DNA of 64,000 nt. Source: a virus. Both the position numbers and the translations under genes were made by a program. Shown piece after piece: positions 28,529-49,134 of this stretch. The notes beneath the pieces are model-generated. The model worked only from the letters and a program-made list of their open reading frames with translations, was not told where the DNA came from and did not search any database. The stretch lies in IMG/VR virus record IMGVR_UViG_3300037119_004556, positions 1 through 64,000 of that record. The stretch is one strand, 5' to 3'. Within the stretch, counting starts at the first letter, position 1. Each line of letters opens with the position of its first letter.

Positions 28529-29665
28529 CTACGTCGCCGCAACAGTATCGGCCGTCGTCGGCTCAGTGGTCGATGGCGCGCTCTGGCCTTTGTCCTCGTG
28601 GATCACGGTGCCGTCCGGGAGGACTGCGATCAGTCCGGCGAAGTCGACCGCTTGGCCCTTCAATGCCACCACGTCCGCTTTGCTGATGCCTTCGTTGCCG
28701 AGTTGCACGACGAACGGGTAGTCATCGACGGTCGTGCCGTACGGTTCGAGCGCGGCCTTGATCGCGTCGGACGCCGCGGCCAATGGTGCCGGGTCCATCA
28801 GCACCGCGCGTCGTGCCGGGCGTGTGTCCGATGCGGTCAGCGACTTCGTCGCCGTCGACGTGGCGGGTGGCGGGTGGACGTCCCCGAGCACCTGGGCGAG
28901 TTGCTCGGGGACCTCGTTCTGGCGGAGCTTGACTTCGAGCAGCGCGACGTACGGCTCCGGTGACTGGTACGGCAGGCCGGTCGGCTTGTACGGCACCTTG
29001 CTCGGATCGACCACCGGCATCCCGACCAGGATCACCTGTCGCTTCGGACGTGCTCCCGCGCCCGGGGCGGGACCCGGGGCGGGAGCAGCCGCGCCCGGCA
29101 CCGGCGGCGGGACCGCTGCCGGGGCGGCGAATGTGAAGATCGGTTCCGAGTAGACATCGGACTCGATGTCGACCTCGGCGGGTTCGGCGGCGGCGCCGAG
29201 CGGGGTTTCGTGGCGTTCGTCGCCGTTCAAGCAGGCGAGGCGGTCGAGCGTGATCACGTCGCCGACCATCGGCAGGCAGTGATCGAGGAGGGATTGGCCG
29301 TGCTCGACGGAGTCGGCGTAGCCGATGGTGAGATGCGGGATGAACGACGGGAACTGGACGGCGTCGTTCATCAACGCCGCGCAGGCGTCCTTGAGTTGCG
29401 CGCGCACATCCATGATCTCTTGCGATTCGAGGATCAGCACGATCGCGGCGTCCTTGCCGAGCATCCCGGCGCCGGACACGTCGGCGTCGATCGGCGGCAT
29501 CGACGCGCACGAGGCGACAGCTTCGGACACGAGCGCGTACTGGTCGGGCGGCAGCGTCTCGTCGGACAGGTACAGCAGGGTGACGTGGAGTTCCTCCGCC
29601 GGGTCGCCGTCGTCCGCTGCGAGCGCCGCCGGGTCGGCGGGGAGTAGCACGATCACTGCGCCCAT
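28529..29665 (-). CDS. 2H phosphoesterase (2'-5' RNA ligase-like) fused to C-terminal domain (378 aa)
   Basis: Two HxTx motifs, EELHVTLLYL near residue 25 and FIPHLTIGYAD near residue 110, define the 2H phosphoesterase fold that cleaves 2',5' or cyclic phosphodiesters. A Pro/Ala-rich linker follows (residues ~185-210), then an unrecognised domain and a Thr-rich tail. Such genes recur beside actinophage capsid genes. Phage Acb1 anti-CBASS enzymes share the fold, so a defence-countering role is possible but not shown. Confidence 0.8.
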   Translation of the reverse strand: MGAVIVLLPADPAALAADDGDPAEELHVTLLYLSDETLPPDQYALVSEAVASCASMPPIDADVSGAGMLGKDAAIVLILESQEIMDVRAQLKDACAALMNDAVQFPSFIPHLTIGYADSVEHGQSLLDHCLPMVGDVITLDRLACLNGDERHETPLGAAAEPAEVDIESDVYSEPIFTFAAPAAVPPPVPGAAAPAPGPAPGAGARPKRQVILVGMPVVDPSKVPYKPTGLPYQSPEPYVALLEVKLRQNEVPEQLAQVLGDVHPPPATSTATKSLTASDTRPARRAVLMDPAPLAAASDAIKAALEPYGTTVDDYPFVVQLGNEGISKADVVALKGQAVDFAGLIAVLPDGTVIHEDKGQSAPSTTEPTTADTVAAT

Positions 29666-46671: not shown

Positions 46672-46701
46672 ATTATGCGCAGACGGACTAGGGTTTGTCA
46701 A
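46672..46701 (-). promoter_or_regulatory. Class I promoter TTGACA-N18-CATAAT
   Basis: TTGACA (46696-46701), spacer AACCCTAGTCCGTCTGCG, CATAAT (46672-46677), six bases, GTG. Confidence 0.9.
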
Positions 46702-46715
46702 GACTGTTGACGTCC

Positions 46716-46853
46716 CTAGTCCGGATCTGCGGGGAGGTCCGCCGGTGGCCACGGCATCGTCTCGAAGACGAAGTAGGCGTCGAAGCGCCGCTTGGCGCGC
46801 CGCTCGTTGTCCGTCATCGCGTCGGGGTCCAGGTCGTAACGCGGACGCAGCAT
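46716..46853 (-). CDS. Small hypothetical protein (45 aa)
   Basis: MLRPRYDLDPDAMTDNERRA then FDAYFVFETMPWPPADLPAD. Strong ribosome-binding site GAGGAGGAAACCACC. Expressed with the tRNA array upstream. Function unknown. Confidence 0.55.
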   Translation of the reverse strand: MLRPRYDLDPDAMTDNERRAKRRFDAYFVFETMPWPPADLPADPD

Positions 46854-46884
46854 GGTGGTTTCCTCCTCTCGTGGCGGTTTGAGC

Positions 46885-46954
46885 GGGACCGGAAGGAATC
46901 GAACCCTCGTAGCCTGGACTGGAATCAGGCGCCCTACCACTGGACGACGTTCCC
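46885..46954 (-). tRNA. tRNA-Trp (CCA)
   Basis: Acceptor GGGAACG/CGGTCCC (one mismatch), anticodon loop TTCCAGT. Confidence 0.85.
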
Positions 46955-46964
46955 TATGTTGAGC

Positions 46965-47035
46965 GCCACCGGCGGGTGCTGACCCCGCGACTTCCGGCTT
47001 GACGGGCCGGTACTCTGCCGTTGAGTTACGGCGGC
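46965..47035 (-). tRNA. tRNA-Asp (GTC), C33 variant, unusual T-loop
   Basis: Acceptor GCCGCCG/CGGTGGC, anticodon loop CCGTCAA with C33, T-loop GTCAGCA, G73 discriminator. Second Asp gene; may be degenerate. Confidence 0.65.
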
Positions 47036-47037
47036 GT

Positions 47038-47109
47038 GGAGAGGACGGGAGTCGAACCCGCAACCTTCTGCGTGCGAAGCAGTTGCTCTACCCTCTGAGC
47101 TTCATCCCC
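47038..47109 (-). tRNA. tRNA-Ala (CGC)
   Basis: Acceptor GGGGATG/CCTCTCC with the G3-T70 wobble pair that defines Ala identity; anticodon loop TTCGCAC. Confidence 0.85.
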
Positions 47110-47178
47110 ATTTTCTGTCCCGCCGCCACGCGTTCCGGCGACGGTCCCAGGCTGGTGACTCGGGCCTGGGCCTTGGGC

Positions 47179-47250
47179 GACGGTGACAGGACTCGAACCT
47201 GCGACACCCAGCTTCGGAAGCTGGTGCTCTATCCACTGAGCTACACCATC
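47179..47250 (-). tRNA. tRNA-Arg (CCG)
   Basis: Acceptor GATGGTG/CACCGTC, anticodon loop TTCCGAA. Confidence 0.9.
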
Positions 47251-47328
47251 AGTTCATTCTGGCAGTTCGACGCCCGGGCCGCACCCCGGGTTTTCAGCGG
47301 GTCATTCAAGTCTCGCCGAACTGCTCGT

Positions 47329-47400
47329 CCGAATGGAGAGGCTCGAACTCCCGACCCCCTGGTCCCAAACCAGGTGCGCTACCAACTGCGCCACATTCGG
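47329..47400 (-). tRNA. tRNA-Pro (TGG)
   Basis: Acceptor CCGAATG/CATTCGG, anticodon loop TTTGGGA with normal T33; second Pro(TGG) gene. Confidence 0.9.
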
Positions 47401-47405
47401 TCGCC

Positions 47406-47538
47406 CCACCGCATGTGCTGTTACGCCTAAGACGAGGCTCTATAGGTTCCTCACCAGTTCCCTGGCTCCCACCGGACCGTCCGGACTCGGGTGTCACTCC
47501 TTAGAGGATGGCTGCTTCTAAGCCAACCTTTGCGGTGG
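47406..47538 (-). ncRNA. 23S rRNA GTPase-associated-centre mimic RNA
   Basis: No protein gene fits here. On the minus strand, TTGGCTTAGAAGCAGCCATC (47507-47526) equals the E. coli 23S rRNA hairpin at about positions 1058-1081, which carries A1067. GCGTAACAGC (47417-47426) corresponds to the second loop of the same centre, GCGTAATAGC, with A1095. A CTAAG/CTTAG stem (47500-47504 with 47427-47431) lies between, as in rRNA helix 44, but its hairpin is replaced by a ~68-base insertion. CCACCGCA/TGCGGTGG closes the whole domain, replacing the rRNA closing stem. It sits between tRNA-Pro and tRNA-Arg in one minus-strand array. That it folds and works as a decoy is inference. Confidence 0.75.
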
Positions 47539-47544
47539 AGTAGT

Positions 47545-47616
47545 GACGCTGGCAGGACTCGAACCTGCGACAACCGGCTTCGCAAGCCGGTGCTCTTTCC
47601 ACTGAGCTACAGCATC
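47545..47616 (-). tRNA. tRNA-Arg (GCG)
   Basis: Acceptor GATGCTG/CAGCGTC, anticodon loop TTGCGAA. GCG anticodon is rare in bacteria, which normally read CGN with inosine from ACG. Confidence 0.88.
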
Positions 47617-47638
47617 ATTGGGCGGTTCCTGTGCTCTC

Positions 47639-47756
47639 AGCGCCGTAGCGGACTCGAACCGCTAACCGGTCGTACCCACCCTGGTGGCCACCAGGTGCCG
47701 TGGGCCACGGACCTTCTCTCACGCTCCGTGCACGGACCGTGAGTCTGCTCGGCGCC
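47639..47756 (-). ncRNA. tRNA-like structured RNA (118 nt)
   Basis: Ends GGCGCCG...CGGCGCT can pair as a seven-base acceptor stem, and the 3' part has a canonical T-arm GCGG-TTCGAGT-CCGC. The interior is not a normal tRNA: it contains hairpins CTCACG/CGTGAG, CCGTG/CACGG and CCTGG/CCAGG with no clear anticodon loop. First gene of the array behind the 47831 promoter. Confidence 0.4.
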
Positions 47757-47830
47757 GGGTTGAGACGACGCTGACAGCACAGGAACTCTCGGAGGAGAAG
47801 AACCCCAACTCCCTTCTCCTTCCACCAGTA

Positions 47831-47860
47831 TTATGCGCAGAACGTCCAGGGTTTGTCAAC
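47831..47860 (-). promoter_or_regulatory. Class I promoter for tRNA / rRNA-mimic array
   Basis: TTGACA (47855-47860), spacer AACCCTGGACGTTCTGCG, CATAAT (47831-47836). No start codon follows; the first products are the structured RNA, tRNAs and the rRNA mimic. A GGAGAAG/CTTCTCC hairpin lies early in the transcript. Confidence 0.85.
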
Positions 47861-47913
47861 ACATTTCACAGGTATTCCTCGATGGTGGAGCAGGCCAGAA
47901 CTACGTTGATGTC

Positions 47914-49134
47914 ATGACGGATCTGTTCTCGCTCGGTCGGTTGTACGTGTCGGACTTCCTTCGCCCGGACGAGGAACCGCGGGCCGAGCCGGTCGAGTTG
48001 AAGCTCGTGTTCGATGAGTCGACGCGGCGCGTCCATCTCTCCGAGTCGGCGGACGCCGAGTTCATGTACGGCCGCTACTGGTACCGGTCCGGTACGAACG
48101 CGACGATGACCAACGAGTTGGCTGGGATCGTCACGTCGATCACCGACGCGATGCCGATCGAGCGCGGTGATCTGTGGGTCGACATCGCCTGCAACGACGG
48201 GACGCTGCTCGCCCACGTGCCCGAGTCGATGGTGCGCGCCGGGATCGACCCGGCCGATGACACGTTCGCGGTCGAGTCGCGCCGCCACGCCGATCTGATC
48301 TTGCAGGAGCCGTTCAGCTACAGCGGGTGGAAGAACTCCGAACTCGGGAACCTGCGCGCCAAGGTCGTGACGTGCATCGCCATGTTCTACGACCTCGAAG
48401 ATCCGATGCCGTTCCTGCGCGACGTCGTGGATCTCATGCGTGACGATGGTCTGTTCGTCGTCCAGATGTCGTACACACCGTTGATGCTGCGCCAGGTCGC
48501 GTTCGACAACATCTGCCACGAGCACATCCACTACTACACGTTGGCGACGATCGACGCCTTGTTCCGGTCCGCTGGGCTGCGGATCGTGGATGTCCAGTTG
48601 AACGACGTCAATGGTGGCTCGTTCCGGGTGTACGCGATGAAGCACGGCGGCGACCCGACGATGTTCGCGACGCAGCCGCACCGCGACGTGTGCCACATGC
48701 GGATCGCGGCGCTCGAAGCGATGGAGTTCGTACACGATCTCAACTCGCCCGAGGTGTGGTTCGCGTTCCGCGACAAGATCGAGTCGCTCAAGGCGACCGT
48801 CGTCAGCTTCATTGCGCAGGAGCGCGCCCGCGGCAAGTCGGTGTGGGCGTACGGGGCGTCGACCAAGGGCAACACGTTGCTCCAATACTTCGGTCTCGAC
48901 CACACGATGATCGACGGCATCGCCGAACGGTCGCAGTACAAGTTCGGGCTGCGCACGGTCGGCACGAACATCCCGATCGTCTCGGAGGACGAGATGCGCG
49001 CCGCCAACCCCGACTACCTGCTCGTGCTGCCGTGGCACTTCATCTCCGAGTTCGTGAAGCGCGAGCGCGCCTACCTCGAAGGTGGCGGTCAGTTCATCGT
49101 GCCCTGTCCGGAGTTCCGGGTGATCGGCGCATGA
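47914..49134 (+). CDS. SAM-dependent sugar C-methyltransferase-like protein (406 aa)
   Basis: Reads DLWVDIACNDGTLLAHVP (SAM-binding motif I), EHIHYYTLATI and C-terminal YGASTKGNTLLQYFGLD. These are the motif order of the NDP-sugar C-methyltransferases (NovU/TylC3 type). The usual N-terminal zinc domain with paired Cys is missing and replaced by ~80 unrelated residues. Likely modifies a deoxysugar or similar glycan. First gene of a three-gene plus-strand operon. Confidence 0.8.
   Translation: MTDLFSLGRLYVSDFLRPDEEPRAEPVELKLVFDESTRRVHLSESADAEFMYGRYWYRSGTNATMTNELAGIVTSITDAMPIERGDLWVDIACNDGTLLAHVPESMVRAGIDPADDTFAVESRRHADLILQEPFSYSGWKNSELGNLRAKVVTCIAMFYDLEDPMPFLRDVVDLMRDDGLFVVQMSYTPLMLRQVAFDNICHEHIHYYTLATIDALFRSAGLRIVDVQLNDVNGGSFRVYAMKHGGDPTMFATQPHRDVCHMRIAALEAMEFVHDLNSPEVWFAFRDKIESLKATVVSFIAQERARGKSVWAYGASTKGNTLLQYFGLDHTMIDGIAERSQYKFGLRTVGTNIPIVSEDEMRAANPDYLLVLPWHFISEFVKRERAYLEGGGQFIVPCPEFRVIGA

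Follow-up and report, generated by a model that had tools for sequence, protein, structure and literature searches.

The question raised by this locus is whether a stretch of phage DNA that lies between two tRNA genes, and that resembles the GTPase-associated centre (GAC) of 23S rRNA, encodes a free-standing RNA that mimics the GAC or is a stray piece of rRNA. The locus is part of the window, by which we mean the whole 64,000-nt stretch of viral DNA that was analysed (positions 1 to 64,000 of IMG/VR record IMGVR_UViG_3300037119_004556). The window derives from a tailed phage, with PHROGs matching 6 of the 9 large ORFs tested, including those for portal, minor tail and head morphogenesis proteins. 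All of the sequence features that a preliminary description had claimed for the gap between the two tRNA genes were found in place, and the full extent of the element is 47540–47404 on the minus strand (137 nt). Its upstream neighbour, tRNA-Arg(gcg) (47543–47616, minus strand), is 2 nt away and its downstream neighbour, tRNA-Pro(tgg) (47327–47400, minus strand), is 3 nt away (both called by ARAGORN), so that the gap between them is almost exactly taken up by the element. The element thus sits between tRNA genes, not within a 23S rRNA gene. At the element itself neither ARAGORN nor Rfam gave a tRNA or tmRNA match, and BLAST found one copy of it in the 101,249-base virus record.

In E. coli 23S numbering, assigned by aligning the element to a true 23S sequence (L068), the window element is a complete copy of the GAC, in which a 10-bp stem closes helices 43 and 44 and the junction between them. 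In the 5′ to 3′ direction it consists of CTCCACCGCA, A, AGGTTGGCTTAGAAGCAGCCATCCT, CTAAG, GAGT, a 68-nt insert, G, GCGTAACAGCAC, A and TGCGGTGGGG, all on the minus strand. The first and last of these are the arms of the closing stem (47531–47540 and 47404–47413), which replaces the upper part of helix 42 (1055 and outward on the 5′ side, 1104 and outward on the 3′ side). The helix-43 hairpin AGGTTGGCTTAGAAGCAGCCATCCT (47505–47529; 1057–1081) carries A1067 at 47519 and contains the loop motif TTGGCTTAGAAGCAGCCATC (47526–47507); its outer pairs, 1057–1081 and 1058–1080, covary in the family described below. CTAAG (47500–47504) corresponds to the 1082–1086 mini-hairpin closed by C1082–G1086, and GAGT (47496–47499) to the 5′ strand of helix 44 (1087–1090), including A1088, which we take to be the tertiary partner of U1060 (G1087 and A1088 are each found in 98% of 126 aligned family members). 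The preliminary description had noted some 68 extra bases in the helix-44 hairpin; these are a 68-nt domain (47428–47495) inserted in the helix-44 bulge, with basal pairs G47495–C47431, A47494–T47432 and C47493–G47433. The helix-44 hairpin GCGTAACAGCAC (47415–47426; 1091–1102) follows, with the second-loop motif GCGTAACAGC at 47426–47417, A1095 at 47422 and a derived A1101 at 47416. The window copy retains A1067, A1095 and A1096, and its helix-43 loop is intact.

The minimum free energy (MFE) fold of the element is a three-way junction of −54.8 kcal/mol (z −2.09; 7 of 200 shuffles were equally good) that keeps the two loops together, as the preliminary description had expected. A search with the Rfam bacterial large-subunit rRNA model (RF02541) had a divided outcome: the match is significant by E-value (1.9e-5; 171 bases searched) but covers the helix-43 half alone, helix 44 being split by the insert, and its 22.6 bits lie under the gathering score of 50. 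A covariance model of our own, R1, built from 30 sequences picked from 39 short-insert copies of the element, gives the window 105.4 bits at 47401–47543, a score that is not independent because the window sequence is among the members of R1.

The homologues in other phages that the preliminary description had called for are numerous. Across IMG/VR contigs, named phages and bacterial contigs we found at least 180 loci of the element, at least 139 of them non-redundant by insert. Among viral contigs, the exact 20-mer TTGGCTTAGAAGCAGCCATC occurs in 78 stretches, in 69 of which the 3′ motif follows 30–480 nt downstream; the other 9 comprise one true 23S sequence (L068), one copy in which no 3′ motif is recognisable (L065) and seven stretches that end before or inside the expected region. 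One of the elements (L056) is identical to that of the window. Conversely, the 3′ motif TTTGGCGTARNAGCACACC occurs in at least 120 stretches of viral contigs, and 87 of the 96 new loci among the matches listed also have the 5′ motif. The same architecture is recovered from either seed, the helix-43 20-mer (69/78) or the 3′ motif (87/96 further contigs). The motif scripts tolerated no more than 5 substitutions in the 5′ motif and 4 in the 3′ motif; very divergent copies are therefore missing from these counts, and the degree of conservation is to that extent too high.

Among annotated phages, a 38-base query matched 47 records, 8 of which have an annotated 23S rRNA under the match, and others are probably 23S. 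Ten of the eleven regions inspected are elements, namely those of phages pf16, UNO-G1W1, Astolliot, 4_4572, XacN1, GAP32, CBB, BF, XbC2 and Kaldavass. The eleventh, from Paenibacillus phage Pd_22F (MZ092003.1; L082), is a true 23S rRNA stretch inside a phage record, whether by contamination, misassembly or otherwise, and was rejected as a member. By the query match alone, further candidates are Milchi, six Erwinia pEa_SNUABM records and, for a 3′ part, Acinetobacter phage ME3. The hosts of the carrier phages include Pseudomonas, Aeromonas, Xanthomonas, Cronobacter, Pectobacterium, Serratia and Erwinia. In contigs assigned to bacterial or archaeal species, 13 of 22 pattern matches are elements and 9 are not, several of the elements being in Clostridia-type contigs. 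Three such bacterial-contig elements (L199, L203 and L205) likely sit in prophages: 8 of 9 proteins encoded near them match PHROG families (RNA ligase, DNA methyltransferases, integrase, RNA-binding protein and one unknown), none of them structural.

R1 matched all 86 further element loci at E ≤ 1, with best scores of 30 to 111 bits; long-insert copies were matched in pieces, and some of the matched loci (for example L009) are closely related to members of the model. Thirteen true 23S loci score 41–52 bits with R1, so that the scores of long-insert copies and of rRNA overlap. Two loci have tandem copies: in one (L144, 3842–4340) both are good (88.4 and 68.1 bits), and in Astolliot (L085, 2654–2985) the second, upstream copy is degenerate (19.1 bits); the insert length of 449 obtained for Astolliot is not real, the degenerate copy having been picked. 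Three loci (L158, L176 and L119) have a further insertion after helix 43 in addition to the usual insert.

Covariation in this family supports the GAC-like fold. The core alignment comprised 126 copies, 13 of the 139 having been dropped because the helix-43/44 junction held a further insertion, the sequence was shifted or the locus was too short. The preliminary description had proposed a helix that closes the domain and had asked for covariation in it; the 10-bp stem CTCCACCGCA/TGCGGTGGGG is that helix, and it covaries strongly over its first seven pairs, which are formed in 123, 121, 109, 105, 114, 101 and 97 of the 126 copies. All four Watson–Crick types are present from the third pair outward, none of 500 shuffles reached the observed pairing, and support fades past about 10 pairs. 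The outer helix-43 pair 1058–1080 is formed in 119 of 126 copies, against 51.6 after shuffling, and pair 1082–1086 in 113, against 68.9; the latter is UA in 56 copies, CG in 40 and AU in 16, and UA in all 50 of the 23S genes compared. In a fixed register, the basal helix of the insert is paired in 124, 121, 109 and 80 of 125 copies, against 77, 66, 51 and 47 after shuffling, with no support beyond these four pairs; a free search did not show it (mean 5.29, against 5.08 with mismatched partners, for which the highest mean was 5.35). When 30 short-insert copies were aligned with MAFFT, 86.2% of cells were paired under the structure named here, with a covariation score of 0.550; shuffling lowered these values to 63.9% and 0.150, and sliding gave no more than 51.5% and 0.192. 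Unguided, RNAalifold recovers the closing stem together with helix 43 and the helix-44 hairpin in these 30 copies but not pair 1082–1086, G1087–C1102 or the basal helix of the insert; it pairs columns 187–188 with 200–201, which rules out G1087–C1102, and pairs that are invariant cannot be told apart in this way.

The preliminary description had joined the two loops by a CTAAG/CTTAG helix. This helix is present as letters and in the MFE fold of the window but does not covary in the family (n = 126): in its register position 1086 pairs in 54 copies (shuffled mean 56) and position 1082 in 106 (shuffled 106), position 1083 stands opposite T in 119 of 126 copies, and positions 1084 and 1085 are uninformative because they hardly vary. 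We thus rejected it as a family trait; CTAAG is the rRNA 1082–1086 mini-hairpin, whose closing pair does covary. The inserts range from 28 to over 300 nt and have subfamily motifs, such as the CACCCC..GGTAAGG type of 29 of the 139 loci, with no motif common to all 139 and no Rfam family match in the loci and two elements searched. There is little sign that the insert imitates another part of 23S rRNA: in a comparison that covered only 3,141 bases around one 23S gene, the top 9-mer was found in 4 inserts, against 2–3 when shuffled.

We compared individual positions of non-seeded copies (80 for positions up to 1090 and 46 for later ones) with those of 50 23S genes. Since the latter were retrieved with an E. 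coli-like BLAST query (matching 57 of 136 genomes, as 12/46, 26/45 and 19/45, plus an overlapping 7/8), the comparison set leans to conserved genes. Positions kept in 96–100% of the phage copies are G1055, G1059, U1060, G1062, G1063, C1064, U1066, G1071, C1072, A1073, G1074, C1075, A1077, C1079, A1084, A1085, G1087, A1088, G1091–A1095, A1098–C1100 and C1102. In particular, G1055, G1059, U1060 and G1063 are kept in 100% of the 80 copies, C1072 and A1085 in 99%, A1084 in 98% and G1087 and A1088 in 96%, and in the 46 copies G1091, U1094 and A1095 are kept in 98% and A1098 in 100%; for G1055 the value is raised by the seed, in which its partner C1104 is fixed. Four positions that are constant in the 23S genes (each 50/50) are relaxed in the phage copies: A1067 (78%, with G in 19%), G1068 (78%), A1070 (74%) and A1096 (67%, with G in 30%). 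A1069 is found in 91%. U1061, also 50/50 in the 23S genes, is U in 58% of the non-seeded phage copies and A, G or C in 42%. Position 1101 is A in all 46 non-seeded copies, as opposed to U1101 of rRNA, and the letters before G1091 are UUUG in 39 and UUUA in 4 of 46 copies (UUAG in the window). In GAC crystal structures the kept positions make up the tertiary core and the surface that the C-terminal domain of L11 contacts, and the relaxed ones are in the loops met by translation factors, the tRNA elbow and thiostrepton. The rRNA letters outside 1055/1104 (1051–1054 and 1105–1108) are not kept; as the L10 site is located on helix 42, that site is probably absent.

These findings leave us with very little doubt that the elements form a real family of GAC-mimic RNAs. 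A stray rRNA fragment, an assembly chimaera or chance similarity would be in keeping with the true 23S sequences that phage and viral collections do contain (L068, L082 and the 8 of 47 records annotated as 23S), but these true 23S sequences were set aside, and the family has shared derived features (an insert at one place and A1101 in 46/46 non-seeded copies), covariation, and ten copies in named phage genomes. The covariation refutes chance and contamination, and we regard this explanation as practically out of the question; together with the comparative evidence it bears out the earlier proposal that a phage RNA mimics the GAC.

The association with tRNA genes extends across the family. ARAGORN calls a tRNA or tmRNA within 2 kb of 84 of the 139 non-redundant loci and within 100 nt of 61, and all 449 calls in the 2-kb range share the strand of the element. 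A tRNA lies at most 10 nt upstream in 27 of the 139 loci and at most 10 nt downstream in 26; a tmRNA is also present in 5 of 180 loci. The remaining 55 of the 139 (40%), many of them short, have no tRNA within 2 kb. No constant protein partner emerged: when ORFs of at least 70 aa within 4 kb were clustered, the largest cluster (HNH-like by eye) accounted for only 10 of 139 loci. We also searched the proteins of 30 viral records (29 with both motifs and that of L065, which has the 5′ half only). A TROVE/Ro protein was rejected as a universal partner, being found in 4 of the 30 at E ≤ 0.001, with three over the cut-off and the window's own genome among them. An L11 domain was found in none of the 30 (14 of 14 in the control), so any L11 partner would come from the host, and a RelA/SpoT domain likewise in none (11 of 14 in the control). 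By eye, the XacN1 element is followed by a terminator-like hairpin and a T run. Genes for RNA-repair-type proteins occur near some copies: a 2′-5′ RNA ligase is annotated just upstream of the XacN1 element (L081, 2329–2979), an RNA ligase with kinase- and phosphatase-type matches is encoded in L203 (2522–4714), and a PNK-like P-loop protein is encoded in the carrier L055.

Together with its fold and defined ends, the strand bias of the element points to a stable RNA made with the tRNAs. Our best explanation, to which we would give an even chance, is that this is a stand-alone phage noncoding RNA that folds like the GAC and binds host uL11. The constant part of the element is what we take to be the uL11 site, which makes host uL11 the most likely ligand; we consider binding of the candidate RNA to uL11 somewhat probable in its own right. 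The RNA would be transcribed together with the tRNAs and, where tRNAs abut the element as in the window, could be freed by tRNA-processing nucleases. Its retained GAC core would then bind host uL11, and the RNA may compete with ribosomes for L11 or keep L11 in an RNP whose variable arm acts further. Because mature ribosomes already contain L11, a sponge would need free or exchangeable L11. L11-dependent events might in this way be tuned during infection, most plausibly the response of RelA to uncharged tRNA. RelA function is partly L11-dependent (PMC7873864), and an enzyme with alarmones as its probable target is encoded by some jumbo phages, according to an overview (PMC7824862); we therefore take damping of RelA during tRNA damage or shortage as the first candidate for the benefit, while holding it doubtful that damping of the stringent response is the main one.

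Several observations count against these proposals. The core could have been conserved for the sake of its fold, whichever ligand of the GAC it serves, an insert at 1090/1091 could interfere with L11 or with helix 44, and U1061, constant in the 23S genes, is replaced in 42% of non-seeded copies; against the explanation as a whole stand the omissions of RNAalifold, the 55 of 139 loci without a tRNA within 2 kb and the 0 of 30 records with RelA/SpoT. Placement of the element among phage tRNAs, RNA-repair genes near some copies (the 2′-5′ RNA ligase of XacN1 and the RNA ligase of L203) and the fast change of closing stem and insert would also suit a decoy, in which a host defence factor, such as a nuclease, a modifying enzyme or a ribosome-sensing effector, recognises the GAC and its attack is soaked up by the RNA, which would act side by side with phage tRNAs and RNA-repair genes. 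There is no constant neighbouring gene, however, and the relaxed positions are those of the exposed loops; we know of no defence factor that acts on the GAC, and rate a decoy as unlikely. Equally unlikely, in our estimation, is that L11 is a mere handle in an RNP scaffold that brings its effector, the variable insert, to ribosomes with or without L11 or to pre-ribosomes. The combination of a constant GAC with an insert that varies in length from 28 to over 300 nt, has subfamily motifs and stands on a covarying basal helix argues for such a scaffold, but the inserts share no motif, have no Rfam match and hold hardly any other 23S part beyond shuffles.

On the ribosome, the GAC touches the tRNA elbow and translation factors, and this, with the genomic link to tRNAs, is what would be expected if the RNA bound factors or the tRNA elbow directly without L11, as a tRNA chaperone or by titrating EF-G or EF-Tu. 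Relaxation of loop positions 1067, 1068, 1070 and 1096, loss of 1051–1054 and 1105–1108 and the probable absence of the L10 site speak against direct binding of this kind, which we place slightly below the decoy and the scaffold. The thiostrepton cleft is formed at 1067/1095, and the window copy keeps both adenines, as would befit a thiopeptide antibiotic sponge. A1067 is also the target of the thiostrepton-resistance methylase TsnR (PMC9508554). But A1067 is replaced in about 22% of the 80 non-seeded copies, and the element occurs in phages of hosts without a known thiopeptide link. The actinobacterial thiopeptides invoked in the preliminary description are thus not supported as an explanation of the family, whose carriers are phages of the genera listed above (Pseudomonas to Erwinia) and Clostridia-type and other bacterial contigs. 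To our knowledge the hosts of these phages have no thiopeptide link, and a sponge is very improbable; because of the carrier hosts and the relaxed A1067 such a role is unlikely for the whole family, and because A1067, A1095 and A1096 are kept, the window copy alone could still bind a thiopeptide.

Returning to the GAC mimic, we asked how it relates to known systems. With the 23S GAC (RF02541, helices 42–44) the element shares helix 43, the 1082–1086 pair, the helix-44 hairpin and the junction core. The helix-43 hairpin has the conserved loop, partly relaxed in the family, and the GAC features that appear kept, as judged from sequence conservation and covariation, are the 1082–1086 pair, U1060/A1088, A1084, A1085, C1072, G1091–C1100 and C1092–G1099. 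Unlike the 23S GAC, the element is a free-standing phage RNA with an unrelated closing stem, a helix-44 insert, A1101 for U1101, relaxed positions 1067/1068/1070/1096 and 1061, and a score under the RF02541 gathering score. The GOLLD and ROOL RNAs are likewise structured noncoding RNAs of phages and prophages near tRNA islands, but they are far larger, and Rfam detected neither in the window or in 14 carrier loci; GOLLD is said to bind ribosomes in pull-downs (PMC12286853). Imitation of a ribosomal-protein site by RNA outside the ribosome is shared with ribosomal-protein leaders, such as the uL1 site in the L11–L1 operon mRNA (PMC10931766), and with OLE RNA, for which an RpsU pocket is proposed (PMC12286853). 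The leaders act in cis at ribosomal-protein genes, whereas the element is viral, often lies in tRNA arrays and has no constant adjacent protein gene; no conserved ribosomal-protein gene lies beside it, there being no constant neighbour in 139 loci and no L11 domain in the 30 viral records. The rnaC and rnaD genes of phage T4 also encode small stable RNAs within a phage tRNA cluster; they are not members, the T4 tRNA stretch (L187) having no GAC motif and no R1 match, and we know of no function for them. T4 rnaC (L187, 1409–1547) ends in a tRNA T-arm-like sequence, and its plan resembles that of the tRNA-like RNA of the window described below.

The GAC mimic is apparently an undescribed viral RNA family that works like, but is not, an rRNA domain, with GOLLD/ROOL, ribosomal-protein leaders and OLE as its nearest kinds. 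This agrees with the earlier statement that no phage RNA of such a kind had been described: Rfam 15 has no family above its gathering score at the element in the window and 14 carrier loci, and, as far as titles and abstracts show, no such RNA is described among the open-licence papers listed by our literature searches, although a description elsewhere is possible. By term search, the XacN1 paper (PMC5852040) does not mention rRNA, ncRNA or noncoding, and the jumbo-phage overview (PMC7824862) does not mention rRNA or L11. It is conceivable, if speculative, that the family represents a widespread class of trans-acting viral RNA in which the GAC mimic of tRNA-rich phages takes up host L11 and a lineage-specific arm is the effector, with the result that translation in the infected cell no longer senses uncharged tRNA, or is rewired in some other way, while tRNAs come from the phage itself. 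Viruses that imitate tRNAs are known; imitation in trans of a functional domain of rRNA would, if true, be a new way to act on host translation, and some seemingly empty gaps in phage tRNA arrays would gain a function. Since cultured phages such as pf16 (host P. putida PpG1) carry the element, the family is open to experiment, and it supplies natural covarying variants of one of the best-studied RNA–protein domains of the ribosome.

Around the element, the region 46700–48000 contains one promoter-like site (0.2 expected) and no terminator-like site was found there; the former, TTGACA-18-CATAAT (47830–47859, minus strand, upstream of the element), is a consensus match only (11 of 12 positions). 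The window has 32 ARAGORN tRNA genes between 31850 and 47616, all on the minus strand, and one extra tRNA by Rfam at 46964–47035. An ORF at 28529–29665 has an RNA-ligase PHROG match. At 47638–47757 on the minus strand, a tRNA-like RNA (about 120 nt) combines an acceptor-like stem with a T-arm sequence; ARAGORN missed it, and Rfam gave no match at the gathering score; the stretch around it (47636–47764) has a fold z of −2.90. The same phage genome encodes a TROVE/Ro-type protein (record position 86805–87050), so that this tRNA-like RNA could be a Y RNA.
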